From the NCBI GenBank assembly GCA_026414265.1, contig JAOAJI010000006.1, positions 1-49,371 on the forward strand: a DNA stretch of 49,371 nt. Direction: 5' to 3'. The notes below the pieces were generated by a model. It saw nothing but the letters and a program-made list of their open reading frames with translations. It made no database searches and was not told the origin of the DNA. Source of the DNA: Microcaldota archaeon (GTDB taxonomy: Archaea; Micrarchaeota; Micrarchaeia; Anstonellales; SKW190). Every line of letters begins with the position of its first letter. The stretch's first letter is position 1. Positions 2,430 to 47,821 of this stretch are shown here, piece after piece. A program made the position numbers and the translations under genes.

Positions 2430-3428
2430 TCACCATAACATATTTTCAATAAATGAATCAATCATTCTCATTCCTTTTATTAATGAATTTATTGAAATTA
2501 TAGAAAGTACAATTATTAGGTTTGGTAAAAAAAAAGCTTCAGGAAAGTACAAAGAATATTTTTCATATCTAATAAATTTATTAGACACTGAAAAGCATTC
2601 TAGAAATTCATTAGATATCAAGTCATTGATTTTGCTTTCATGAAATGCGTAGTTCGCATAAATAAAAGGCACAAAGAAATAGACAGATATTCCAATCGCA
2701 AAAAATGCGTTACCGAAATCTCTTAAACCTGGAATCAACTTAAAGATTAGCCCTATTATAAAAATCATAAGCAAGAAATTTACACTTAATAAATCTAGTA
2801 TAATTCTTTGAATGGTAATACTGACTTGTGCGGTAACCAAGAAATTTATGTATGCATCTCTAAGTATGTATGTCGCTTTATTATCAGATGAAGGTAAATC
2901 CAATCTGCCTTCTCCTTCCCAAATAAACCATCCCCTGTAAGAATATTTGGCAGAGTTGGCCCAGTTGTCAACTGCTTGGTAATTTAATTCTTTAATTAGA
3001 TTCCTTTGATAGTTATCTATTTTTTTAACAAAGTTAATGGCCACAGCATGATAGTCTATATTAGGGTCTTTTATCATTGAACAAACTGGTATGTAAATAA
3101 GATCTACTACTATAATAAGAGCTATTACCAATAAAATATAAGTTATTTCTTCTTTTACTCTTACTAGCAGATGTACATTATGTGTTGCTTGTGCAACAAT
3201 ATACAAGACGGCAGTTGTAAAAATTATAAGAAGACCTAAAACTATGACCAACCAACTTTGTTGAAAATTAACTAGGTTTATAATTATTGAGTTGTTCATA
3301 CACTGAGAAAAGTATATGTTCGCCAATGCAAAAACAAAAAATATTAGTTTAATTAAAGTAAATTTGTCAAATAACAATTTTTGAGATATTACTTTGATTG
3401 TTATTTCAGATAATCCTAGTAATCCCAT
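2430..3428 (-). CDS. Polytopic membrane protein of unknown function (332 aa), paralogous-looking to both neighbours
   Basis: ORF track; multiple hydrophobic segments; overlaps the upstream 1717-aa ORF by 23 bp; shares motif FKLIPGLRDFG..FFAIGISVYFFVP with neighbours. Confidence 0.85.
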   Translation of the reverse strand: MGLLGLSEITIKVISQKLLFDKFTLIKLIFFVFALANIYFSQCMNNSIIINLVNFQQSWLVIVLGLLIIFTTAVLYIVAQATHNVHLLVRVKEEITYILLVIALIIVVDLIYIPVCSMIKDPNIDYHAVAINFVKKIDNYQRNLIKELNYQAVDNWANSAKYSYRGWFIWEGEGRLDLPSSDNKATYILRDAYINFLVTAQVSITIQRIILDLLSVNFLLMIFIIGLIFKLIPGLRDFGNAFFAIGISVYFFVPFIYANYAFHESKINDLISNEFLECFSVSNKFIRYEKYSLYFPEAFFLPNLIIVLSIISINSLIKGMRMIDSFIENMLW

Positions 3429-6400
3429 ACAGAGTCACATCACCACTTAAAGCTATAGATATACTTCTTGCAGCACTTATTATCATGAATAGTACAATTA
3501 AATAAGTAACTAGTGTAGCAATAGAACTGTAAAGAACTACGTCCATCAACTCCTTCAATTTATCCAAATACAAGAGCCTAAAGTCGCCTTGTGCAGCCTG
3601 TGAAATATAATTGTTTAATGCAACAGACATAGCATTTGTAAATGCGTATTGCACTGAAACATAAAATAATGTAACTATCCATTTACATAGTGGATAAGGG
3701 ACCCATGGTTGCAATGGAGGGCATATAATATTTGCCCAGTTTACTTCACCTATAAAAGTAAAGACTTGTATACCTTGATTACATACTGTTCCATAGCCAG
3801 GTGGATTTGCAACAGGTGGCACCCTTGCACCACTTCGTTCAACTACATCTATATAAGCGCCAACCGTTCTTATAGAATTGCTTATGTAGTCCATCATTAA
3901 AAATTGGAAAAAATATACGCCTAAAGGCAAAAATATTTGCATTGATATAAATAGTGAAATTAACATTGTCCCTATTGAGCGAGTAAAAGGCACAACCTTA
4001 AGCATAAAACCAAATGCCAAAAGAAATAGACCAAAACCTTGTAAAATAATTAATAAAAATTTAATTGAACTGTTAAAAGCCATTAATAACAACAACTGAT
4101 TTGACAAACTTATTATACCTTCTGCAACAGGCATTAATCCAGATAATGGAGTAAGTGAATTCCAATTAGATACAAACCCAAACCTGGCGTTAGAATAATC
4201 ATATGAAAACGTAAATAATTTAACCATGTTAGCGTAGTTCTCAACTACAATATCATAAATAACTGTATAATGGAAATTAATTTGATCTAATGTAAACACT
4301 GCAAAATTTACAAAATTTGAATTGTTAGGCAAAACAAAGTTTGAAGTTATGTTAAATATCCCTAGAATAAGTATGAATTGTATTAATGAATTACCTAATT
4401 CGATAAATTCATTTCTTACAATCATTTCTAATTGGGTCATCCCCAAACCTTTTGAAACAATGTAAACAACCACAAGAGAGAACAATACACTTAAGATAAT
4501 TATTGGAAAGCAGATTGACAAAGAATTAGGGACATTAGGTATTATTGGGTTCGTTAAAGCTGGATTGTTTATATTTTTTATATTACATATGGCACGCCCG
4601 CTTGCATCTGTAACACAATTGTTTTCACAATCATATATTATATATCTTAGATTGTTGCCATCACAGGTTGCCTCTAAAATTCTATTAGTTCCATCATTGG
4701 AACACTGATCATTGTAAAAAGTTATTAAGCCATTTTCAGTGACTTTTACATAACCTAAAGTTCCAGGAGAATTGCCGTCAGAATCAACACATGTTTTAGC
4801 AATAGGATTACAAGTGAAATAAGAAAAATCTAAGGTATATGGGCATCTGGTATTTGGAGGACAAGGTTGCTCAGACCTTATAACTGAAGAAGTTATTGGA
4901 TCACAGGAATATTTAATGACACTTATTTCATTTGGTGCACAATGATCTTTGTAAACTATATTATTGTAATAGACTATTGTTCTTCCATTAACATCTGTAA
5001 GTTGAATGCAGTTATTAGGACTTACCATGTAAGTAGTTGAACCAGGCGGAGCTGCTGAACCAGGCGGAGCTGTACCACAATAAGTACCTACTGCACCTGT
5101 ATATTCTTTTGAAGCGATATTATTACCATCGCACAAGTATTCTGTTACCTTGGCTCTTCTTGTACCATCTGGGTTAACTATTTCCACGCACACATCATGT
5201 TTAATTACACCAGCAGTTTTTACATAGCCATCAGTGTATGGAGAATCACCATCCGAATCATAACAATTAATGCATCGACCTTCTATGCATAACATGTTTT
5301 GATTTCTACAATCTATATTCTGACTTTTTACTTGTAGTTCTGTCTCATCACAATAAAACTCCTTCAATACGAAGTCATTAATACAATAATCAGTTTGCCT
5401 AGTAATGGTAAGTTCATCCGAACCAGCATATAGAGACGTAAAACCTTGTTCATTTTCATCAATCCCGTTGTCATTTTCACCGCATGAAAGCACTTGACAT
5501 TCTCCTTGACGGCATATATAATTTTGTGGACAGTTAATAATCTTGTCTAAAACCTCTACAGAAGTACTAGATCTACAATAGTATTCTCTCAAAGAATTTT
5601 CATTAATACAATAATCACCATTTTCATTAACAATGTCTCCTTCTTTTTTTATACCATAAGTATTGCCTTTCTTGAATTCATTTTCGCCATCATCAGTATC
5701 TATGCACATGTCAGTAGCATAACTACTCTGTTCACACTTTCCATTATTACATAATAACCCTTCAGGACATGAATATCTCTTATAAATTAGTTTATTACCT
5801 AAGCAAGTTGCTTCATCAATTTTTCTTAAATCACTTTGAACACATTTATCTTCTATTCTTTCAGTAAGGTTCTCGGCATAACCTGCTTCAACTAAAGGAT
5901 CTGAACTTCCTGCATCGGAATCTTCACAAAAAGATTTTTTACAAGCGCCATTAACACAAAAGTAATCTTCAGGACATGATATATATTCAGAAAATATAGC
6001 ATTACTTTCATCATTACAGTAATATTCCTGTAAAATTCTTTCATTAATACATGTGTCACTTTTTGTTTCAGTTCCGTTTGAAGTAGTCCCAGATACCATA
6101 CTTGGATTTTCTGCATCAGTGTCAGAATCAATACACCTGTTTTTAGGAACACATTCTCTTTTTGTACTGTCACACACGTGATTAGTTGGACATTCCTTTT
6201 TCATTGTTAAAACTCTGTTATCGCTCCCACAGTACGTATAATTCAAAAATCTTTCATCTATACAATAATCTTGTAGTGTGACCGTTCCATTAGTCGTTCT
6301 TTTTTGGTCATCATTTCTTGTGCATTGTTGACCAAGTACACATTGACCGTTTAAACATATTTGATTTGAATCACATACCATTTGTTCTACTTTGATTATA

Positions 6401-8559
6401 CTACCATCACAATATGTTTCATTAACTGTGTTTATGTTGTGACACACATCATCTAATCTGTTAGTTGAGTTGATTGAAAAAGATGCCTGTGTCTTAACCT
6501 TGCCGTTGTCGTTATCTATACACTGATTCTGTGTAGATACACATTTACCACCAGAACATATGTGGTTAGCTGGGCAATTTAAGTCAACAAATATTGGGTT
6601 GTCATTAGAACATATTGCTTCTTTTACGAAAGTTCCACCTTCTATAGGGCAGTAGTCTGTTATTATGGTAGAGCCTTTGGCAGCTTGACTCTTAAAGTAA
6701 ATACTATTTGGACCTAAGTCTAAGTCAACACATTGAGTATTAGCCACGCATCTACCATTATAACATAATTTATTTTCTCCACAATAAAATACCTCATAGG
6801 TTGCACTTTGACTACAAAAGCTCTCTGCAATATGAGTAGCGTTGACACATGAATCGAAATATGCAAAATCTTTGTCAGCAGTCTCTCCATATACATCAAG
6901 TATTTTACCTCCATCAGTATCTACGCATTCACCAAAACCAAGGTGTCTACATTTTCCTGATTGACAAATCATGTCACTTGCAATACAATCATACAAAGAA
7001 GAAGTAGGATTGCCATTAGAACAATAACTTTCGTTTATGTAAAATAAATTGTAACAAGAATCCTTCATGATAATGTTGTCTTTCTTTGCTTCACCATAAA
7101 CAGTAAGCTGGATACCTCCATCAGTATCTACACATTGATTGTAAACACACCTTCCACCAGAAGAATCTTGTAAACAAGCTCCATTATCGCACGATAAATT
7201 AGTAGAAATAATCACATTACCACTACAAGTGTATTCAGTTACGTGTGTGGAGTTCACGCACTTGTCTGTAAAAGAATGAGTCGTATTCGATACTGTCCCT
7301 ACTATATTCTTGTCATTACCATCAGTATCTGAACAAAGGCTGAGTGGGATACATCTTCCATTATCACATTTGTAATTTTCTGGACAGGTAGTATCTACAC
7401 TTCTAACGATAAATTGATCACAATAACCTTTTCTGATAGCTCGCACGTCTGACTCAGACAAACAATGATCAGTAAACGAATATCCAGAACTGTTGGATGT
7501 TGTTCTTTGTGTGTATAAATCAGGTGCTGATGGTCCTATACAATAGCCACAAAAAGCAGGAGAACTTTCGGAACCAAACCACGTAGAACATAAATAACCA
7601 TCTGGACAGGATAAAATAGCTTCCTTAATTGTTCTATCCGTGTTACATGAATATTCTCTAATTTTGGTAGAATCTATACAAATGTCATATTTTATTTGTG
7701 TTTCGTTGCTTGTTTTTCCAGGCAAAGTAACGGTTAAACCGTTATCTGTATCGGTACACGATACTTCTCTACATCTTCCGTCTTCACAAATATAGCCACT
7801 TGGACAATCCTGATTTGTAAATTTGATATTGTTATTAGCATCACAATAAAACTCCTGAACTCTGGTAGCACTCAAGCACACATCATTACTTGTAGATCCG
7901 CCTTTTGTTACGCTACCTTTATTGTATATATCTATACCATTATCTGTATCGCTGCATGTGTTTATATTGATACACTTTCCATTTGAGCACATCTCACCAG
8001 ATCCTGGACAATATATATGCTCTGAATTCAATTCCTTTTTCCACGAGAAGCCATCAAAAACATACTCACAATAATACTCATTCAGTTTAGCGTCTTGACA
8101 GAAATCTGAATAAGAAACGTAACCGTTACTAGCAGTACCTTTGTTATAATAATCTTTGCCTCCATCAGTATCAGTACAAACACTGCTTGGATCTATACAT
8201 GCAGAAGTACCATCAGAATAAGTTCTACACTGATAAGGAGAATTACATGACGTTGGTGCAGTCATAAGATCAAATTTGTTAGTTTTTGGCTTATTGTCTG
8301 AATAAAAACAATCGGCAGTACATAAACAATAGTATAATAAAGAGCACGTGTTACTATAAGTTACTCCATTTGCTATTATCTTTCCTGCAGAAGTGTCAGT
8401 AGGTTTTGTATAGATTATAGCATAATAAATAGGGTGGCCATATACATCAACGAACCTTTGATACCCAGGAGCCACATCACATTGTGCGTAAAGTAAATTT
8501 AAGGAAAACAGAAAAAATAGTAAGCACACTAATTCTATTGATTTAAGAGAAACCAACAT
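3406..8559 (-). CDS. Giant secreted/membrane protein: signal peptide, about 17 Cys-rich repeats (C-x-D-[TS]-D-[GN]...), C-terminal polytopic membrane domain
   Basis: 1717-aa ORF; N-term MLVSLKSIELVCLLFFLFSLNLLYAQC; repeated CxDTDGG...DxC...EYYC...CPxGYxCxxGxC units; C-terminal multi-TM block. Confidence 0.92.
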   Translation of the reverse strand: MLVSLKSIELVCLLFFLFSLNLLYAQCDVAPGYQRFVDVYGHPIYYAIIYTKPTDTSAGKIIANGVTYSNTCSLLYYCLCTADCFYSDNKPKTNKFDLMTAPTSCNSPYQCRTYSDGTSACIDPSSVCTDTDGGKDYYNKGTASNGYVSYSDFCQDAKLNEYYCEYVFDGFSWKKELNSEHIYCPGSGEMCSNGKCININTCSDTDNGIDIYNKGSVTKGGSTSNDVCLSATRVQEFYCDANNNIKFTNQDCPSGYICEDGRCREVSCTDTDNGLTVTLPGKTSNETQIKYDICIDSTKIREYSCNTDRTIKEAILSCPDGYLCSTWFGSESSPAFCGYCIGPSAPDLYTQRTTSNSSGYSFTDHCLSESDVRAIRKGYCDQFIVRSVDTTCPENYKCDNGRCIPLSLCSDTDGNDKNIVGTVSNTTHSFTDKCVNSTHVTEYTCSGNVIISTNLSCDNGACLQDSSGGRCVYNQCVDTDGGIQLTVYGEAKKDNIIMKDSCYNLFYINESYCSNGNPTSSLYDCIASDMICQSGKCRHLGFGECVDTDGGKILDVYGETADKDFAYFDSCVNATHIAESFCSQSATYEVFYCGENKLCYNGRCVANTQCVDLDLGPNSIYFKSQAAKGSTIITDYCPIEGGTFVKEAICSNDNPIFVDLNCPANHICSGGKCVSTQNQCIDNDNGKVKTQASFSINSTNRLDDVCHNINTVNETYCDGSIIKVEQMVCDSNQICLNGQCVLGQQCTRNDDQKRTTNGTVTLQDYCIDERFLNYTYCGSDNRVLTMKKECPTNHVCDSTKRECVPKNRCIDSDTDAENPSMVSGTTSNGTETKSDTCINERILQEYYCNDESNAIFSEYISCPEDYFCVNGACKKSFCEDSDAGSSDPLVEAGYAENLTERIEDKCVQSDLRKIDEATCLGNKLIYKRYSCPEGLLCNNGKCEQSSYATDMCIDTDDGENEFKKGNTYGIKKEGDIVNENGDYCINENSLREYYCRSSTSVEVLDKIINCPQNYICRQGECQVLSCGENDNGIDENEQGFTSLYAGSDELTITRQTDYCINDFVLKEFYCDETELQVKSQNIDCRNQNMLCIEGRCINCYDSDGDSPYTDGYVKTAGVIKHDVCVEIVNPDGTRRAKVTEYLCDGNNIASKEYTGAVGTYCGTAPPGSAAPPGSTTYMVSPNNCIQLTDVNGRTIVYYNNIVYKDHCAPNEISVIKYSCDPITSSVIRSEQPCPPNTRCPYTLDFSYFTCNPIAKTCVDSDGNSPGTLGYVKVTENGLITFYNDQCSNDGTNRILEATCDGNNLRYIIYDCENNCVTDASGRAICNIKNINNPALTNPIIPNVPNSLSICFPIIILSVLFSLVVVYIVSKGLGMTQLEMIVRNEFIELGNSLIQFILILGIFNITSNFVLPNNSNFVNFAVFTLDQINFHYTVIYDIVVENYANMVKLFTFSYDYSNARFGFVSNWNSLTPLSGLMPVAEGIISLSNQLLLLMAFNSSIKFLLIILQGFGLFLLAFGFMLKVVPFTRSIGTMLISLFISMQIFLPLGVYFFQFLMMDYISNSIRTVGAYIDVVERSGARVPPVANPPGYGTVCNQGIQVFTFIGEVNWANIICPPLQPWVPYPLCKWIVTLFYVSVQYAFTNAMSVALNNYISQAAQGDFRLLYLDKLKELMDVVLYSSIATLVTYLIVLFMIISAARSISIALSGDVTLYGITRII
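4580..8178 (-). repeat. Protein-level tandem repeat region, about 17 Cys-rich units of roughly 60-85 aa inside the 1717-aa ORF
   Basis: Units begin CTDTDGGKDYYNKGT, CSDTDNGIDIYNKGS, CTDTDNGLTVTLPGK, CSDTDGNDKNIVGT, CVDTDGGIQLTVYGE, CVDTDGGKILDVYGE, CVDSDGNSPGTLGY etc. Confidence 0.9.
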
Positions 8560-10035: not shown

Positions 10036-11295
10036 ATGAAACTCGATTATTTGGTTGCAAGAGAAATTTTAGATTCACGAGGTAATCCTACTGTAGAGGT
10101 AGAGATGCATTGTAATGGAAAAATAGAAATTGCTTCGGCACCTTCAGGAGCAAGCACAGGCTCTTTTGAAGCAATAGAGCTAAGGGACGATGAAAAAGCA
10201 CGTTATCACGGAAAAGGAGTAAGGAATGTAGTCAATATGATAAATGGAAAAGTTAGAAAAAGTATCCTTTCGCAAGAATTCAATAGCTTGAGAGAATTCG
10301 ATGAATTTCTAATTAAATTAGATGGTACAGAAAACAAATCTAACCTTGGTGCAAACGCAACCACTGCATTATCTGTATGCTTCGCAAAGATTTATGCTGT
10401 TGTTAATAACATGCAGCTATACGAGTACATCAACAAAGAATTCCACAAAAATGTGTACAAAATTCCTGTACCTTTTGCTAACATATTAAATGGAGGTAAA
10501 CACGCAGGTAACAATTTAGCCATTCAGGAATTCATGATAGTACCATTAACTGAGAAATATTCAGAGGCTATGCAGGCAGTGAGCGAGATCTACCACGAAT
10601 TAAAAGGAATTCTTAAGAACAAATACGGAAGCCAAGCGATAAACGTTGGTGACGAAGGAGGCTTCGCGCCTAACCTGAACAACTGTGAAGAGGCTATAGA
10701 ACTCATTACACAAGCAATCCAAAATTTAGGTTACCAGAAAAACGTCAGAATCTCTTTAGACGCTGCAGCAAGTTCTTTTTACGAAAAAAAAGCATACAAA
10801 ATTGACGGGAAATCGCTTAGCGCAGACAATCTTTTAGACTACTATGTTGAGCTGGTTAAAAAGTATAAGTTGTTTTCTATAGAAGACCCGTTCAATGAAG
10901 ACGACTTCGAATCTTTTGCCAAATTATTGAAAGAAGTAAAAGGAAAATGTAGGATAGTAGGAGACGATTTAACTGTCACAAACAAAAAAAGAGTTGAACA
11001 AGCAGTAAAACAGAAAAGTATAGATACTCTGCTATTAAAAGTTAATCAAATAGGTACTGTTAGTGAAGCATTTGATGCTGCTCACATGATATTGAGTGCA
11101 AAAGGACAAGTAATTGTTTCTCACAGGTCAGGAGAGACTGAAGACAATTGGTTAGCTGATTTGGCTACTGGAATGCATGCTCTTGGTATTAAGCTAGGGG
11201 CGCCTGCAAGAGGCGAAAGAACAGCCAAATACAACAGACTTTTAAGAATAGAAACAAAAAACAGGCTGATAAAGTACATTGGCCATTACATTTAA
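10036..11295 (+). CDS. eno: Enolase (phosphopyruvate hydratase)
   Basis: AREILDSRGNPTVEVE, SGASTGSFEAIELRD, NVGDEGGFAPNL, LLLKVNQIGTVSEA, VSHRSGETED. Confidence 0.98.
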   Translation: MKLDYLVAREILDSRGNPTVEVEMHCNGKIEIASAPSGASTGSFEAIELRDDEKARYHGKGVRNVVNMINGKVRKSILSQEFNSLREFDEFLIKLDGTENKSNLGANATTALSVCFAKIYAVVNNMQLYEYINKEFHKNVYKIPVPFANILNGGKHAGNNLAIQEFMIVPLTEKYSEAMQAVSEIYHELKGILKNKYGSQAINVGDEGGFAPNLNNCEEAIELITQAIQNLGYQKNVRISLDAAASSFYEKKAYKIDGKSLSADNLLDYYVELVKKYKLFSIEDPFNEDDFESFAKLLKEVKGKCRIVGDDLTVTNKKRVEQAVKQKSIDTLLLKVNQIGTVSEAFDAAHMILSAKGQVIVSHRSGETEDNWLADLATGMHALGIKLGAPARGERTAKYNRLLRIETKNRLIKYIGHYI

Positions 11296-12308: not shown

Positions 12309-13244
12309 CTACTTTTTTTGAGGCTTATTATCCTGTTGGCCAATATTTGTATCAGGATTTGCTATGTTTTTACTGAGTTTCTCTAGCATAGCTGTAAATT
12401 CCATAGGGATAACAAATTTCGTTGATGGTGCTTTTCCAACTTCTTCAAGTGCTTTTAACTGCCATAAAGTTAAGGCAGATCCCCTTAAGTAATTGTTTGC
12501 TGCATCAGCCACTATCCTTATGCTTTCTGCCTCTCCTTTAGCGAGTATAATTTTAGCCTGTCTTTGACCCTCGCTTTTCAATATTTCAGCTTCTTTCTGA
12601 CCCTCTGCTTCAAGAATAGCGCTCTGCCTGTTTCCTTCTGCCTCTAAAATCATCGCTCTTTTCGTTCTCTCAGCAGCCATTTGTTTGGTCATAGCATCTC
12701 TTATTGGTGCTGGTGGTTCTATCTCTTTTATTTCTACTGCTTCAGCCTTAACACCCCACTTGTCAGTAGATTCATCTAAAGTTTCTCTCAGTTTAGTGTT
12801 TATTACCTCTCTTTTTGAAAGGCAATCATCCAAGTTCATGTCACCTATGATGCTTCTCAAGGTAGTCTGAGCTAACCTGATAGTGGCATGCTGGAAATCC
12901 TCTACCTCTAAAACAACTCTTTGTGGGTCTATGACCCTGTAATAAATGACTGCGTCTACACCTACAGTAGCGTTGTCTTTAGTAATTACATCCTGCCTAG
13001 GCACTTCAAGGGTCTTTATTCTCAAATCAGTTATGCGCATCTCTTCAATAAATGGAATAACTATGACTAATCCAGGGCCATAAACACCTGCAAATTTTCC
13101 AAGTGTGAACTTGACTCCCCTTTCGTACTCTTTCAATACTCTAACTGAAATCGCCATTAAAACTACAAAACCTAAAGCAACGCCAATAACACATATAGTC
13201 GTTACCATATCATTGTCACCTTGTTGACATGAACATACAATCAT
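12309..13244 (-). CDS. SPFH/Band 7 (stomatin-like) protein; true start possibly 13208
   Basis: EYERGVKFTLGKFAGVYGPGLVIVIPFIEEMRITDLRIKTLEVPRQDVITKDNATVGVDAVIYYRV; AEAE/EGQ-rich coiled coil. Confidence 0.93.
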   Translation of the reverse strand: MIVCSCQQGDNDMVTTICVIGVALGFVVLMAISVRVLKEYERGVKFTLGKFAGVYGPGLVIVIPFIEEMRITDLRIKTLEVPRQDVITKDNATVGVDAVIYYRVIDPQRVVLEVEDFQHATIRLAQTTLRSIIGDMNLDDCLSKREVINTKLRETLDESTDKWGVKAEAVEIKEIEPPAPIRDAMTKQMAAERTKRAMILEAEGNRQSAILEAEGQKEAEILKSEGQRQAKIILAKGEAESIRIVADAANNYLRGSALTLWQLKALEEVGKAPSTKFVIPMEFTAMLEKLSKNIANPDTNIGQQDNKPQKK

Positions 13245-13257
13245 TAAAATTTTTTTA

Positions 13258-14697
13258 TTATTCTTGACCTTCTATTCCTTTCAAGCTATTTGAAAGTCCT
13301 TTAACATCCATCGGTAAAATTACATTTGTTTTTTCTGAAGAATTTAGTTTTTTCCACGTGTCTAATTCCCAAATTGTCAAGGCCACTCCACGCAATAACC
13401 TCATAGCTTCTTCTGAAATTATTTTAATGCTTTCAGCCTCTCCGTTAGCCAAGTTAACTTTAGCTTTTGCTATTCCTTCTGCAACTATTTCATATGATCG
13501 TTTTATTCCATCTGCGTTAATTATAGAAACTTCTCTCCTGCCTTCGCTTTCTATTATAATTGCTCGTTTAGTTCTCTCAGCCTTTATTTGTGTCATCAAC
13601 GCGTTTAATAAATTTTCGTCTATTGGTCTGATTCTGCCTATTTCAGCGTTTATGAACTCTATACCCCAATCGTGGCCATAATCAACTAACGAATCCCTAA
13701 TTCTTTTGTTTATCTCTTCCCTGTTGGTGTTTAAGTAATCAAATTCCATTGACCCTACTATGGACCTTAAAGCTGTCAAAGTAATGTTGATTGTAGCTAA
13801 TTCGTAAGTTGCAACAGAAAGTATAGTTTTACTCACGTCAACTATTCTGTAATAGATAGCAACTTCAATCAAAACATTTGCGTTGTCTTTTGTAATAACT
13901 TTTTGTAATGGCACTTCAATAGTGTGAATCCTCTTATCTGCTGCAGCTACTACATCCAGCAAAGGGATTATGAAGTTAAAACCTGGATTTAATTTTCTGA
14001 TCAATCTTCCAAATCTGAAGATTAAACCTTCTTCATATTGCATTACAACTACAAAAGACCTCATGATTAACAGAAATATTAGAGAGAAAAGTAGAGTAAT
14101 CATGAGCGGCACTGTTTTATTTAAATAAATTAGAAAAGCCAAAGGAAAAAATGAATAAACAACAAGCTTGAACCCCCTATACTGTCTTCTTTCTAAGTGG
14201 AAATCAATACCGTGAACTACAAAATGGGCTGATAAAAACGTAATATAACTCTCTAACATGTATTGGTAATTGAAAAAAAACAAGTACATGAGAATAAACA
14301 GAGAAATTGTCATGTCCTTGATAAAATGATTAACTCTGACTCTGTAGAAAGGAAGAAATGCTACTAATAAAACTAATGAAATGAAGAAAAAATGATTATA
14401 AATATGCATTTTAGCTACATCTATAATAACTGCTAAAACAGGCATAAGTAAAAGAGGCACAAAAGTCCTTAGTGAAGGATATAAAGAATGATAACTCCAA
14501 CTCTCTCTAATAAGGTCAGCTGACCTAGGTTCATTTGCAGGTCTGTCAACATAAATCACTCTTTTATATGGCTTGTATACATTATACATTTTGGAAGTAA
14601 ACAAAGTATCAGAAATCATATCTGAAGAAGTGTTGCTTGAAGTTTGAGTTTGCTTGCTTTCAGCAGTTTTTTGCTTTTTACTCATATAATTAATCAT
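13258..14697 (-). CDS. SPFH/Band 7 protein with extra multi-transmembrane N-terminal region
   Basis: C-terminal half QYEEGLIFRFGRLIRKLNPGFNFIIPLLDVVAAADKRIHTIEVPLQKVITKDNANVLIEVAIYYRIV; N-terminal ~200 aa with several hydrophobic stretches. Confidence 0.9.
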   Translation of the reverse strand: MINYMSKKQKTAESKQTQTSSNTSSDMISDTLFTSKMYNVYKPYKRVIYVDRPANEPRSADLIRESWSYHSLYPSLRTFVPLLLMPVLAVIIDVAKMHIYNHFFFISLVLLVAFLPFYRVRVNHFIKDMTISLFILMYLFFFNYQYMLESYITFLSAHFVVHGIDFHLERRQYRGFKLVVYSFFPLAFLIYLNKTVPLMITLLFSLIFLLIMRSFVVVMQYEEGLIFRFGRLIRKLNPGFNFIIPLLDVVAAADKRIHTIEVPLQKVITKDNANVLIEVAIYYRIVDVSKTILSVATYELATINITLTALRSIVGSMEFDYLNTNREEINKRIRDSLVDYGHDWGIEFINAEIGRIRPIDENLLNALMTQIKAERTKRAIIIESEGRREVSIINADGIKRSYEIVAEGIAKAKVNLANGEAESIKIISEEAMRLLRGVALTIWELDTWKKLNSSEKTNVILPMDVKGLSNSLKGIEGQE

Positions 14698-14746: not shown

Positions 14747-15160
14747 ATGGACTTTTCAATTCTTTTAATCATACTTGGTGCAATCGCACTTTTTGCTGAA
14801 CTTTTTTTACCATCAGGAATAGTAGGCGCACTGGGGATTGGTTTAATCGTAGCTGGGGCATTGCTGTTTCTAAATGTAGACACAAATATTTCGATGATAA
14901 TAGGCGCACTTTCAACGATACTATCTGTTATCGCGATATTGATATATGCAAAGCATCTTCAAAAAAAGCCGATAAAAACTGGTGCAGAAAGTTTGGTGGG
15001 AAAAGAGGCCAAAGTCTTGAAGAACTTCAAGGACGGCAAAGGACTTGTAGTTGTTGAGTCACAAACATGGACCTGTGAATCGATTAAAGGAAAAAACTAC
15101 AAAAAAGGACAAATTGTAAAAATACTTAATTACGAAGGCGTTCATTTGAAAGTAGAATGA
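14747..15160 (+). CDS. nfeD: NfeD-like membrane protein (stomatin partner)
   Basis: N-terminal TMs LFAELFLPSGIVGALGIGLIVAGALLFL; C-terminal OB-fold-like region LVGKEAKVLKNF..GKGLVVVESQTWTCES. Confidence 0.85.
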   Translation: MDFSILLIILGAIALFAELFLPSGIVGALGIGLIVAGALLFLNVDTNISMIIGALSTILSVIAILIYAKHLQKKPIKTGAESLVGKEAKVLKNFKDGKGLVVVESQTWTCESIKGKNYKKGQIVKILNYEGVHLKVE

Positions 15161-18127: not shown

Positions 18128-18862
18128 CTACTTGTCTTTTCTTTTGTTGTCAAAACTAAAGTCTTCAAACAACGAAATTATACGTGCTTCTATATTGGGC
18201 ACGCTACTTTTTGTATCTGATATTAATTTTAAAGCACTGATGTAGCACTCATCGTATTTGAACTTTTCATGAAGTCTCTTTAAGTTTTTGTCTTCAAGAA
18301 TTTCAGAAAACTTTATTGTAGCATACAGTTCAAGTTCTTTTTCTGTAATTTGCCACAAAGGACAACAATAAACCATGCCTTTCCTTCTGTAAACCAGCAT
18401 ACTTGATAATTTTGGTAAAGTATTAGTTGATGAAAATATTTTAGCAATTAATTCGATTGCTATTTCGTCAGCACTTTTTGATAAAAAAATTAAATCAGGA
18501 GTTGACTTTATAACTGGACTTACTCGTTCATCTTTATCTCTAGTAGATAAATTAAACTTTGAGTTCAATAATTTACTTTTAATAGGTACCATCTTCATAG
18601 GATACTCTTTGATCAATTTTAAAACTAAATCTAATAGAACTATATTTGACAAAGAATAATCCAGTTTAACAGAGACTTTGATACCTGGCTTCAAAACCCT
18701 GAAATTTCTTACTGCCCTTTTAAATTTTTTATAAATATATTCTTCTAAATGAACGCCACACAAGTGCAGAGTCTTAGAAAGTTCATATGTTGAATTAGAA
18801 CCACATAGGTTGCACTTTTTTTTACTTTCTACCATAACCATCAACACATTGTTTACAACCAT
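18128..18862 (-). CDS. TtuA/Ncs6/TtcA-like protein with degenerate PP-loop (probable pseudoenzyme)
   Basis: N-terminal CNLCGSNSTYELSKTLHLCGVHLEEYIYKKFKRAVRNFRVLKPGIKVSVKLDYSLSNIVLLDLV aligns with TtuA Zn-finger + (A)VSGGKDS region, but the SGGKDS motif is lost. Confidence 0.75.
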   Translation of the reverse strand: MVVNNVLMVMVESKKKCNLCGSNSTYELSKTLHLCGVHLEEYIYKKFKRAVRNFRVLKPGIKVSVKLDYSLSNIVLLDLVLKLIKEYPMKMVPIKSKLLNSKFNLSTRDKDERVSPVIKSTPDLIFLSKSADEIAIELIAKIFSSTNTLPKLSSMLVYRRKGMVYCCPLWQITEKELELYATIKFSEILEDKNLKRLHEKFKYDECYISALKLISDTKSSVPNIEARIISLFEDFSFDNKRKDK

Positions 18863-18874
18863 TACTTTTTTATC

Positions 18875-19915
18875 TTATCTAAATGGTCTGTTAGTTCTTC
18901 TTGTTTTAGTTAAGTTTTCTAAGCTCATTAAGGTTATGATTCTGTCCATCTCAGATTGGTCGATCTTTGCCTTTAAATCTGCGTCTATCAATACGGCAGG
19001 ATAAGTATAATTCCTATTGATAGCACACAGTGAAGACAATATACCAGCTAAGTCGTTTATCTTTTGTAAGTCAACAACAGTCTCTATTCTTATTGGTTTA
19101 TCCAACAAAGACAGTCTCATGTAGAAAACATTTATATCAGCATTAAAATTGTGCTTCTCCAAATCCTTGAGGATTGGATTTACATAGCTCTTATTTGGTT
19201 GCTTTACCTCGTAAGAAAATACAGAGGTCCTGGAATTTTCAGGCATCAAATCAGATAAGAAAGCTATATCTGATGAATAAAGGCCCTTTAACATTTCATA
19301 TTTCTTTTTTGCTTTTTCAATTATCAACTTAGCTCTACTATCTTTTGCAATTGCACATAATATCTTGTCTTTTGATTTTGCAGAGTTAAAAAGTTTAGCC
19401 AGTTTATTTATAACTTCTGTATAAAGAGGATATAATTTAGACTCTTCTTCAGGTTTATCTACAGGTAATGGAATTATCGAACCATCTAAAATTAACATGT
19501 CTGCTTTATCGTCATTAATCAGATTCTGAGTTATCTCTATCTCTTCTTTTATTCTGTTGAGCGATTTGAAACAGCTCAGTTCATGAATGTCTAAACCTTC
19601 TTCAAAAATAATCTTATTCTCTATACCTAATGGATAGTAAAAAGTTTCAATCCTCTTGTTAGAACTATAAGAGATTATTGACGCTACACCCCTTACCACC
19701 AGTATATCTGCAGTCATAAATTCCTGCCACAACATCGAGGAATCTATTCCAGCAACCACTAAGTCTAAATCCTTGTTCCTAATCGGAATCAGAAACTCTT
19801 GTTCCTTCATTCCTTCAAGAATTATATTATTGTTCATTAATTCAATCAAAGCCATGTTTCGCTTTTCCTGGCGTGCACGTAACTTGTTTAGTAGTTCCTT
19901 AAGTTGCAAAAGCAT
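18875..19915 (-). CDS. nurA: NurA-domain nuclease
   Basis: VVAGIDSSMLWQEF, MLILDGSIIPLP, CAIAKDSRAKLI; NurA-like motif order. Confidence 0.75.
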   Translation of the reverse strand: MLLQLKELLNKLRARQEKRNMALIELMNNNIILEGMKEQEFLIPIRNKDLDLVVAGIDSSMLWQEFMTADILVVRGVASIISYSSNKRIETFYYPLGIENKIIFEEGLDIHELSCFKSLNRIKEEIEITQNLINDDKADMLILDGSIIPLPVDKPEEESKLYPLYTEVINKLAKLFNSAKSKDKILCAIAKDSRAKLIIEKAKKKYEMLKGLYSSDIAFLSDLMPENSRTSVFSYEVKQPNKSYVNPILKDLEKHNFNADINVFYMRLSLLDKPIRIETVVDLQKINDLAGILSSLCAINRNYTYPAVLIDADLKAKIDQSEMDRIITLMSLENLTKTRRTNRPFR

Positions 19916-44255: not shown

Positions 44256-45224
44256 TCATCTTGGAATACATCTGTATACCGTTGGACTTGTTGCAACCAG
44301 ATCACATTTTTGACCTATAGGACAGTCTGAATCGCTTGCACAATAACCAAACTTCAACTTACATAACTTGTTCACAGTGTCACAGTACTGATAAACTGCA
44401 CAATCTTTGTTTTCTCTGCAATGACCTGCTTTTAACACACATCTTTTCACTACTTGATCACAAACTTCATACGACTGACAATCCTTGTTAGAAGAACAAT
44501 AACCTTCTTGAGGAATGCAATAGTTGTTTTTAGAACAGTATTCGTGCCATTCACATTCTGCACTAGTAGAGCATCTTCCCTTTTCAGGTATGCATCTCTT
44601 TGAAACCAAATCACAGTATTCCCATGACTTGCAATTTTCTTTTGAATAACAATATCCTTTTTTGAGTTCACATGTTTTTGTTTTATTATCACAAGATTCC
44701 CATGACTTACAATGCATGTCAGAAGAACATCTCCCAGGTAGAGGAACGCATTTTTGAGTATTTAAATCACAGACCTCGTAGCTTTCGCAGTCAAATGAAT
44801 TGTAACACATGCCTTTCATAGGCCTACATACGTGTCTGTTTTCGTCACAAAATTCATTCTGTTTACATTGAGTATTATCTGAACAAAATCCTGGTTTAGG
44901 TTTACAATAATTAGAGCTAACATCACAAACCTGCCACTCAATATCACAATGCGCATCTGTTTTACATCTGTCCTTTTGTAGGACACATTTGTGAGTTTTT
45001 ATTTCACATTGTTCTAAGTCCTTACAATCTGCGTTAGATTCACAACTTCCAGGTAATAACACACACTTTCCTTTTTCTGCATCACACGTCTGATAATTTT
45101 TACAATCTTTATCTGTCTTACATTTTTTGGAAGAAGTTGTGGAACAACCAGAAAGTATGAGGAAATAAAATACTAACGTAAAAAATACGATTATTATTAA
45201 TAGTTTGTTTATATTGTGTCCCAT
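44256..45224 (-). CDS. Lipoprotein with 11 tandem Cys-rich repeats (start moved to MGHNINKLL)
   Basis: LVFYFLILSGCSTT lipobox; repeats of pattern C-x5-C-x5-C-x6-C. Confidence 0.88.
   Translation of the reverse strand: MGHNINKLLIIIVFFTLVFYFLILSGCSTTSSKKCKTDKDCKNYQTCDAEKGKCVLLPGSCESNADCKDLEQCEIKTHKCVLQKDRCKTDAHCDIEWQVCDVSSNYCKPKPGFCSDNTQCKQNEFCDENRHVCRPMKGMCYNSFDCESYEVCDLNTQKCVPLPGRCSSDMHCKSWESCDNKTKTCELKKGYCYSKENCKSWEYCDLVSKRCIPEKGRCSTSAECEWHEYCSKNNYCIPQEGYCSSNKDCQSYEVCDQVVKRCVLKAGHCRENKDCAVYQYCDTVNKLCKLKFGYCASDSDCPIGQKCDLVATSPTVYRCIPR
44259..45122 (-). repeat. 11 tandem ~26-aa (~78-bp) Cys-rich repeats
   Basis: CKTDKDCKNYQTCDAEKGKC, CESNADCKDLEQCEIKTHKC ... CSSDMHCKSWESCDNKTKTC ... CASDSDCPIGQKC; Dickkopf/EGF-like spacing. 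Confidence 0.9.
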
Positions 45225-45286
45225 GTAAGAGATGTTATAATTTAATGCTTTTAAACCTTTTGCAACTTTTAGCTGTCTACACAGAT

Positions 45287-47821
45287 TCAAGTCCGCCAGA
45301 ATCTGTGGGTCCTTATAAACTGCATCTGAGCTTGCAACAAAGCCAGTAAAAAATGTCTCTCATCTTCGTAATTTTTTTGTAGTATTCTCTTGGCGGTAGT
45401 AGTACTGATACCATATGTGGACAAAGCATAAACAGCTTTTTTACCATAAGTCCTTGTCAAAATTTCTGAATCCTTTAAAGAATTTACCTCTATCATCATA
45501 GACTGACATTTTGCACATTTGATTGTTTCTTGAAGTAAACTAACCTTAGAATACCATTTGTTTTTACAATATGTACAACATAAAAATACCTCTTTTTTGT
45601 CTAGGTTCTGTTTTAAAGAAGATACTGCATCGTAATGAGGGTCTTGATTATGGCCCTCAACAACCAGATTCATGCCCAAATAATCAAGAAATTCCAATGT
45701 CCTTATCGATAAATCATTGTAAACTCTGATATTTTGATTTAGATCATCTAATTTTTTTAGAAATCCAAAATCGAAATATTTAAATTTACAATAGTTTATT
45801 GCTTCTTCTCCAATTACGTTATCAGCTAAACTACGCGCATAATCAAATGAAATATAACCTCTAGGTTCATGTATAATTCCAAAATGTCTCAAATTTTGCG
45901 ACAGAGTATTAATGTATTGATTGGAATTAATTATTGCGTTTCTTGGATTTATTCTTTTTATTGCTAGCATAATCTTTTCTAAGTTCAAGAAGAGAGACTG
46001 GTCACTTATTACTATTCTGTAAGCGTCACTAAAAGATGATACTTTATAACCCATTTGAGTTAGTGCGTCCCTCAAGCAAATTTCAAAAGCACGATTCATT
46101 TTTGTACCCAGATGCGTATACAATACAAAAAGACTATTTTCTTTTGAAATCTCTACATAATAGTTCTCTACATTCAAATTTTTTCTTACCTGTTGAGCTA
46201 TGTTATAGTCGACAGGAATGTCTTCACCTATCCAATCAGGCACAGCTATCGCCATCTTTTCCTCTACTGCAATAACTTGTTTTTTTTCGTTATCTATTGC
46301 TAAACATCTCCAAGAAGTACCCTTGGTTAAAAAAATGTCGTCCACATTAAGTCTTTGAACAAACGTGTAATCTAAAGTGGCTATTTTTCTATTGTTGGCT
46401 GAATTAAGTAACGTGTATTGTTCATAAGAAGGAATAAAAGAACAGTTTTTTAGATAGTTGAGCTTACCTGAAAACCTTGGGAATATCTTACCTTGCCTAA
46501 GATCATAAAACAACAATCCATTATTGGATAACTGAAAAACTATTTCAGCTAGCTTTTTTATGTCTATGGAGTAACAATATGCATTCTTGAACAATTCATG
46601 CACTTCAAATATGGACAATCCTTGATTTTCATTTCTCTCATCAAAAGATTCAGCCAATAAACCTAAGACTTGGTGACCTATGACATCATAGCTGGACCTT
46701 AAAATATTTCTGTTTTCCACGTTATCATTTCCATAACTTTCAACTGCTTTTACCAAGGATATGGATTCAGCGTAATCCTCTATAGAAAGAGTGTATATAA
46801 TACAATTAGAGGTCCCTTCTATTGTGTGACTACTTCTACCAGCTCTCTGAATCAGTTTTTCTATCCTTTTTGGCGAAGAGATCTGTATAACCAAATTAAC
46901 ATCGCCTATGTCTATCCCCAACTCCAAAGAAGATGTGGCAACTATACATTTCACTCTACCTGACCTAAAGTCAGCCTCTGCTTCCTCTCTGACAGTTTTA
47001 CTCAGAGAGCCATGATGGATTCTGCAAGGAATTAGTTTAACAAGATATGAAGCCAATATTTCAGCCATTTCACGTGTGTTTGTAAATACTATGATCTTAT
47101 TTTCAGTAGACAGTTGTGAAATTTCTTCAACAATTTTGTTTAATGAAGATGGTTTCCTTACATCAAACACAAATTTTTTTTTGATGTTAGTCTCTACTAT
47201 AGTTACGGTTCTACCTATACCAGAAAGAAATTGTGATACCTCATTTTTATTAGATACTGTGGCACTTAAACCTATGCGTGTTAAGTTTGATTTAACTTTC
47301 CTCTGCAGTCTCTCCAAAGATAAAGAAATTTCAACTCCGCGCTTAGAATCAATTAATTCATGAATTTCATCTATAATCACATATTGCAATTGCGAAAAAT
47401 CGTAGTTCTTATTTACAAGTAATAACTGTAAAGTCTCTGGTGTGGTAATTAACAAATCTGGATTGTTATGTTCTAATCGCTTTTTTTCTTTTTCTGACGT
47501 ATCACCATGCCTCACAGCATAGCTGATTGATAAATCCTTTAAAAATTCAAACCTTTTGTACATGTCTCTGTTCAATGCCTTTAATGGAGTAATATAAAGC
47601 AGCTTTAAGCCTTTTACTTGTCTATCTATAGCAAAACAACATGGAATAATTGCAGCTTCAGTCTTGCCATAGCCAGTAGGCGCTATTATCAATGAGTTAG
47701 TACGATTCAATATCGGCTGGATCGCTAACTCTTGAACATCTGTCATTGACGGAAATAAAGTTAAATAGAAATTTTTTACTTTAGTAACAATCGTATCAAT
47801 CTCGTTGTCCATAAAGAACAC
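45287..47821 (-). CDS. Lhr-like DEAD/DEAH-box superfamily 2 helicase with C-terminal zinc ribbon
   Basis: SLIIAPTGYGKTEAAIIPC; LQYVIIDEIHEL; TSSLELGIDIGDVNLVIQISSPKRIEKLIQRAGRSSH; CTYCKNKW..CAKCQSM. Confidence 0.9.
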   Translation of the reverse strand: MFFMDNEIDTIVTKVKNFYLTLFPSMTDVQELAIQPILNRTNSLIIAPTGYGKTEAAIIPCCFAIDRQVKGLKLLYITPLKALNRDMYKRFEFLKDLSISYAVRHGDTSEKEKKRLEHNNPDLLITTPETLQLLLVNKNYDFSQLQYVIIDEIHELIDSKRGVEISLSLERLQRKVKSNLTRIGLSATVSNKNEVSQFLSGIGRTVTIVETNIKKKFVFDVRKPSSLNKIVEEISQLSTENKIIVFTNTREMAEILASYLVKLIPCRIHHGSLSKTVREEAEADFRSGRVKCIVATSSLELGIDIGDVNLVIQISSPKRIEKLIQRAGRSSHTIEGTSNCIIYTLSIEDYAESISLVKAVESYGNDNVENRNILRSSYDVIGHQVLGLLAESFDERNENQGLSIFEVHELFKNAYCYSIDIKKLAEIVFQLSNNGLLFYDLRQGKIFPRFSGKLNYLKNCSFIPSYEQYTLLNSANNRKIATLDYTFVQRLNVDDIFLTKGTSWRCLAIDNEKKQVIAVEEKMAIAVPDWIGEDIPVDYNIAQQVRKNLNVENYYVEISKENSLFVLYTHLGTKMNRAFEICLRDALTQMGYKVSSFSDAYRIVISDQSLFLNLEKIMLAIKRINPRNAIINSNQYINTLSQNLRHFGIIHEPRGYISFDYARSLADNVIGEEAINYCKFKYFDFGFLKKLDDLNQNIRVYNDLSIRTLEFLDYLGMNLVVEGHNQDPHYDAVSSLKQNLDKKEVFLCCTYCKNKWYSKVSLLQETIKCAKCQSMMIEVNSLKDSEILTRTYGKKAVYALSTYGISTTTAKRILQKNYEDERHFLLALLQAQMQFIRTHRFWRT

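Follow-up and report, generated by a model that had tools for sequence, protein, structure and literature searches.

A degenerate NcsA-type gene and its surroundings

The window, the whole stretch of 49,371 nucleotides analyzed here, comes from a MAG of the phylum Micrarchaeota (G000; 1.18 Mb, 90.7% complete). It carries on its minus strand a gene of 244 codons whose frame is intact, with no internal stop, as had already been recognized in the first-pass annotation of this DNA. We call its product B; the gene, its retained and altered motifs, and the two neighboring genes of relevance are collected in Table 1. The shared strand and the short gap to the nurA gene make it likely that nurA and B are co-transcribed, which implies no functional link between them.

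Table 1. Features of the B gene and its neighborhood, in positions of the window
Feature	Position	Strand	Basis
Enolase gene, 7 kb from B	10036..11295	+	Head-to-head ncsA neighbor in 21 Micrarchaeota genomes
B: degenerate NcsA/TtuA-family protein, non-catalytic, 244 aa (putative subunit)	18128..18862	-	Intact ORF, family match, codon usage
C-terminal helices ECYISALKL...VPNIEARIISLFEDF	18158..18250	-	Alignments; model helices 205-218 and 224-236
CCPLWQITEKELELYA, equivalent of IKPLxxIPEKEIALYA	18320..18367	-	Second hmmsearch domain, residues 167-188
LSKSADEIA at the TGHNLDDEA position	18458..18484	-	Alignment
Former PP-loop: VSVKLDYSLSN (residues 63-73) where VAVSGGKDSLA is expected; no ATP-binding motif	18644..18676	-	Alignment
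Conserved helix KRAVRNFRVLKPG, after the zinc finger	18683..18721	-	Alignment; model pLDDT about 75-96 around the helix
N-terminal zinc finger C17-x2-C20 ... C35-x2-H38, 4/4 ligands kept	18749..18814	-	Alignment with TtuA/NcsA
NurA nuclease gene, directly upstream of B, 12 nt apart	18875..19915	-	Pfam PF09376, E=1.4e-15

Several other genes of the window deserve mention. A 1717-aa protein (3406-8559, minus strand) with many Cys-rich C-x-DTDxG...C repeats and a multi-helix membrane region at its end has no Pfam match, and the gene next to it (2430-3428) encodes what by appearance is a multi-helix membrane protein. Cys-rich repeats also make up a 344-aa lipoprotein-like protein (44256-45290, minus strand), which is matched by DUF5885 in five stretches. 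Two tandem genes at 12309-14697 (minus strand), with a third adjoining at 14747-15160, were named by reading as stomatin/prohibitin-like and NfeD-like, respectively.

The affiliation of B with the NcsA/TtuA family of tRNA thiolases is unmistakable toward the N-terminus and weaker further on. Residues 16-68 are recognized by the NCBIfam TtuA model (E=4e-4), residues 17-83 align to solved TtuA chains (E=2e-4), and a profile of 23 Micrarchaeota NcsA proteins yields 45 bits across two segments, 12-94 and 167-188. The first-pass annotation had placed B in the TtuA/Ncs6 family on the basis of an alignment running nearly the full length of TtuA-like enzymes. Profile searches of all three kinds recover that family match, but it is confined to the parts of the protein just named, and the assignment itself can be narrowed: the Micrarchaeota NcsA profile gives B a slightly higher score than a TtuA-type profile does, and this difference, together with the synteny of a counterpart in a second genome described below, supports a probable derivation from the NcsA (U34) rather than the TtuA (U54) branch. 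The ordinary NcsA proteins of relatives share at most 36% identity with B across its N-terminal 80 residues. A Pfam search with B alone returned no match, and the Ctu2 domain, sought in B with Pfam, was not found at E<=10.

Much of the motif reading made at first sight holds under alignment, namely the N-terminal CxxC...CxxH zinc finger, the ERAIRRHRML-like helix, the segment equivalent to TGHNLDDEA, and the C-terminal YISALKLI stretch, which aligns with the ECPYA..AFR...YPGTK..ILNSF region of the family. LDYSLS stands in B at the SGGKDS position; the replacement of VAVSGGKDSL had been correctly seen, although the interval assigned to it, 18644-18664, covers just part of the segment. The central catalytic CxxC, described earlier as not evident, is indeed absent, as the region bearing this FeS-binding motif is deleted in the alignment. 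The first reading had omitted the lack of the C-terminal zinc ribbon, upstream of which the aligned protein ends, and had not noticed Cys206, which falls at the third FeS-ligand position (C of CPYA) in one alignment. As judged from these alignments, a [4Fe-4S] cluster on three cysteines in the manner of NcsA is not possible in B, with one FeS position perhaps retained as Cys206. Because the PP-loop, the FeS CxxC, and the C-terminal ribbon are all absent, B is not an NcsA enzyme. AlphaFold modeling from the single sequence was uninformative (pLDDT 32). Supplying an alignment of NcsA homologs gave a model with a pLDDT of 66, in which confidence is limited to the zinc finger, the first beta-alpha-beta unit, and helix 168-184; its top 17 PDB matches are TtuA or NcsA structures, a result that is partly circular since the alignment was itself made from this family.

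A retained gene rather than a decaying one

The loss of the ATP loop and the FeS CxxC, along with a very long tree branch (4.5 changes per site), might suggest that B is a decaying ncsA pseudogene whose frame is open by chance. However, when ncsA genes were allowed to drift neutrally in simulation to <=40% identity, they acquired 9-12 stops on average and never reached zero, the number seen in B. The codon preference of B is likewise that of a gene, being 0.25 bits per codon (the range in 23 window genes is 0.20-0.41) and exceeding that of shuffled sequence by 5 standard deviations. Moreover, all four zinc ligands have been kept in both lineages that possess such a protein, while the catalytic motifs were lost. 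We therefore reject the pseudogene reading on the grounds of the simulation and codon usage and regard it as very improbable. The earlier opinion that the gene is retained rather than decaying is thus upheld, with the second lineage encoding the same kind of protein as an additional argument. That B is homologous to NcsA/TtuA, non-catalytic, and retained is, taken as a joint claim, secure. The accompanying suggestion that B is a non-catalytic paralog kept by the genome, perhaps as a subunit that binds tRNA, also finds support, as it fits the family profile searches, the simulation, the codon usage, and the presence of the finger-less paralog to which we now turn.

A finger-less catalytic paralog in the same genome

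The whole genome encodes a sole other NcsA/TtuA-type protein, here called A (P0001; G000:C34:3317-4267), on a different contig from B and with no operon shared between them. A carries the SGGKDS motif, the CxxC, the CPCS cysteine, and the C-terminal CxxC..CxxC ribbon. Its first 30 residues contain no Cys, and the N-terminal zinc finger is gone. The intact paralog for which the first-pass annotation had proposed a search thus exists, missing exactly the zinc finger that B keeps, and with it the genome has the catalytic homolog that accompanies a Ctu2-type protein. The remaining PP-loop matches in the genome were identified by reading as GuaA, NadE, and ArgG types. The N-terminal finger is kept in 39 of 41 homologs from other archaeal and bacterial genomes, one of them a variant; the two without it are an enzyme cut by a contig end and the enzyme of the second lineage with a B-type protein.

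This second lineage is Candidatus Micrarchaeota archaeon WY4.bin88 (G098), from the same class as G000 and a different order. Its B-type protein (P0002, 217 aa) retains the zinc finger with all four ligands, has GVLLTGDAGSS at the PP-loop, and lacks both the CxxC and the C-terminal ribbon. The core of P0002 is still readable (LTGDAGSS for LSGGKDST, AGHSIEDF for IGHNLDDV, KHPGTKHKMLKS for KYPGTKFKILNS), and the protein exceeds the Pfam cut-off for the TtuA N-terminal domain. Like B it is basic, the pI of the two being 9.4-9.6. The sole NcsA/TtuA-type PP-loop enzyme of G098 is also devoid of the N-terminal finger.

We searched 301 Micrarchaeota genomes of a single class with the window protein as query and then with a two-sequence profile. 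Among the convincingly scoring matches, a stand-alone B-type protein was found in two of the 301, G000 and G098; the others were frames of ordinary enzyme length or were cut by contig ends. With a profile of the two A enzymes, the scores are 640 and 560 bits for G000 and G098 and at most 204 bits for any other of the 301 genomes. Finger-less A and finger-bearing dead B hence occur together in G000 and G098 and in no other genome of the phylum, as surveyed with profiles that were built from these two genomes and that more distant cases could escape. A candidate second B homolog in G001 has a spurious look, with a stop in frame and an antisense position relative to a longer ORF, and was discarded. 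Given that G000 (91% complete) is, like G098 (93%), a MAG, an intact ncsA missing from its assembly is strictly speaking possible.

The survey also brought out a further clade of finger-less TtuA-type PP-loop enzymes with no detectable B (G004:C4, G012:C116, G015:C23, and G041:C3; L075, L076, L079, and L077, respectively). The finger-less enzyme is the only copy in G004 and G012 and is accompanied by a full NcsA in G015 and G041. The existence of such enzymes means that a missing finger alone does not demand a partner, and the pairing of A with B is to that extent not proven.

Origin of the two proteins

In 21 Micrarchaeota genomes from several families, ncsA and the enolase gene are arranged head-to-head. 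This holds for 28 of the 28 loci with enolase in reach (seven are second copies of the same locus), and no other arrangement was seen. This association between a thiolase gene and one of glycolysis is very stable. In several Micrarchaeota NcsA proteins, an extra N-terminal stretch of ~70 residues resembling ThiS/SAMP sulfur carriers is fused to the enzyme (L083:664-1797 in G047, L011 in G006, L023 in G034, L082 in G057, L026 in G014, L084 in G051, and L101 in G073). Three of these extensions, when tested, matched Pfam ThiS (E=0.003) and SAMP2 (E=0.02-0.08) below the cut-offs, and the gene immediately upstream of ncsA in G030 encodes ThiS.

The B gene of G098 (minus strand) is head-to-head with enolase (plus strand), as is the intact ncsA in the 21 relatives, and the tree places the protein within the Micrarchaeota NcsA clade. 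Because of this locus and this placement, G098's B is ncsA itself, hollowed out in place. The B of the window most likely descends from the former ncsA of its genome; the enolase gene 7 kb away is a suggestive hint of such an origin and nothing firmer. On its long branch, AU tests reject neither a single B clade, nor a position of the window's B in the Micrarchaeota NcsA clade, nor its grouping with A. The two A proteins, at 37% identity, pair in the trees with 94% SH-aLRT support, again on long branches.

A proposed two-subunit tRNA thiolase

NcsA is a dimer whose terminal zinc domains have been proposed to clamp the tRNA (PMC10067955), and the eukaryotic form of this dimer is believed to combine a catalytic Ctu1 with a dead Ctu2 (PMC10067955, PMC10450187). 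The best-supported mechanism for A and B, which we consider slightly on the probable side, is that together they constitute an archaeal two-subunit tRNA thiolase; as members of the family are dimers, a heterodimer is the most likely form of the inferred contact. B would be a non-catalytic subunit derived from a former ncsA, the gene of a wobble-uridine tRNA thiolase. It would have dispensed with ATP binding, the FeS cluster, and the C-terminal ribbon and would keep the N-terminal zinc finger and helical frame for docking to tRNA and partner. In taking the place of one protomer, it may supply the zinc finger missing from A and position the tRNA, a role that we infer for B, while catalysis would fall to the finger-less PP-loop enzyme A, which would activate and sulfurate a tRNA uridine, probably U34. 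More broadly, in some Micrarchaeota a homodimeric thiolase may have been replaced by a heterodimer with reciprocal losses, each functional site persisting in one subunit only, a generalization that we hold to be evenly poised.

An alternative that we judge unlikely, though it deserves consideration, is that B is a retained former NcsA working without A, with A acting as a homodimeric thiolase; B might, for instance, have a regulatory role, bind RNA through its zinc finger, or serve as a free chaperone that binds tRNA. The finger-less enzymes of G004 and G012, which make do without a detectable B, would sit well with such independence, as would the want of an operon with A and the presence of nurA as the upstream neighbor. 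Yet it leaves unaccounted for the restriction of finger-bearing B and finger-less A to exactly the same 2 of 301 genomes and the correspondence between the part kept by B and the part lost by A; B has, moreover, kept the C-terminal core helices besides the finger, and not the finger alone. A separate issue, which concerns only origin and is compatible with a heterodimer, is whether A and B represent one shared ancient invention, inherited or transferred as a pair. We entertain this tentatively and with some doubt: each A protein has the other as its nearest relative and one clade for both B proteins is not rejected (AU p=0.55), but G098's B falls among NcsA proteins from other families that lie outside the order of the window, and sits in the ancestral ncsA locus, which fits separate degeneration once A was present.

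As to the target of the A/B pair, we lean toward the wobble uridine U34, since the m5U54 methyltransferase is missing: none was found above the family cut-off in G000 or G098, whereas G001, which has a finger-bearing TtuA-type enzyme, has one above it. Action on U54 as in TtuA-type 5-methyl-2-thiouridine synthesis, rather than on U34, is an improbable alternative that draws on the published residues separating U54 from U34 enzymes (PMC10067955), as A is TtuA-like at two specificity positions that are Glu/Arg in NcsA, and on the slightly better score of A with the TtuA-type profile (218 bits versus 208). Besides the missing methyltransferase, it is opposed by the third specificity position, which is Arg in the G000 enzyme as in NcsA, and by the occupation of the ncsA locus by G098's B. 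The sulfur-carrier ThiS family was sought in G000 and G098 and not found, a result without discriminating value.

Comparison with known systems

Among characterized structures, B resembles NcsA (PDB 6scy) in its N-terminal zinc finger, first beta-alpha-beta unit, and C-terminal helices, as well as in the chromosomal locus that its counterpart occupies in G098; it differs in having no PP-loop, FeS CxxC, or C-terminal ribbon. The best PDB matches of B in both sequence and fold are to the m5U54 2-thiolase TtuA (PDB 3vrh, 5mko, 5gha), from which it differs by the same three losses and by its slightly better fit to the NcsA profile. In the published account, a single self-sufficient NcsA carries out tRNA thiolation in archaea, and the division into a catalytic and a non-catalytic subunit is a eukaryotic step (PMC10067955). 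We found no description of a degenerate NcsA or an Ncs2-like partner from archaea in the open-access literature, by which absence is not proven. If our proposal is true, an archaeal A/B pair with cleanly divided sites would show that the split of the thiolase is possible in archaea. Attempts by the authors of the former study to produce a recombinant Ctu1/Ctu2 complex failed (PMC10067955); the A/B pair would offer a compact system for asking what a dead subunit does, and the placement of the N-terminal zinc finger on a separate chain from catalysis would permit a direct test of the purpose of this finger.

The closest parallel lies with the eukaryotic cytosolic U34 thiolase, in which Ctu2/Ncs2 is the non-catalytic subunit (PMC10067955, PMC10450187); Ctu2 is a paralog of Ctu1 that lacks the FeS cysteines and keeps its zinc sites (PMC10067955). 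B, too, is a degenerate paralog of a catalytic PP-loop subunit, has no FeS cysteines, and exists beside a catalytic homolog, and both Ctu2 and B keep the N-terminal zinc site. In contrast to Ctu2, B is archaeal and lacks the C-terminal zinc site that Ctu2 retains, and, unlike Ctu1, Ncs6, and NcsA, each of which has been described as having a zinc-finger domain at either end, A has no N-terminal finger. An origin independent of Ctu2 is argued by the position of G098's B within the Micrarchaeota NcsA. The division of labor that we propose for A and B would match that of the eukaryotic Ctu1/Ctu2 (Ncs6/Ncs2) pair and would have been reached independently of it.
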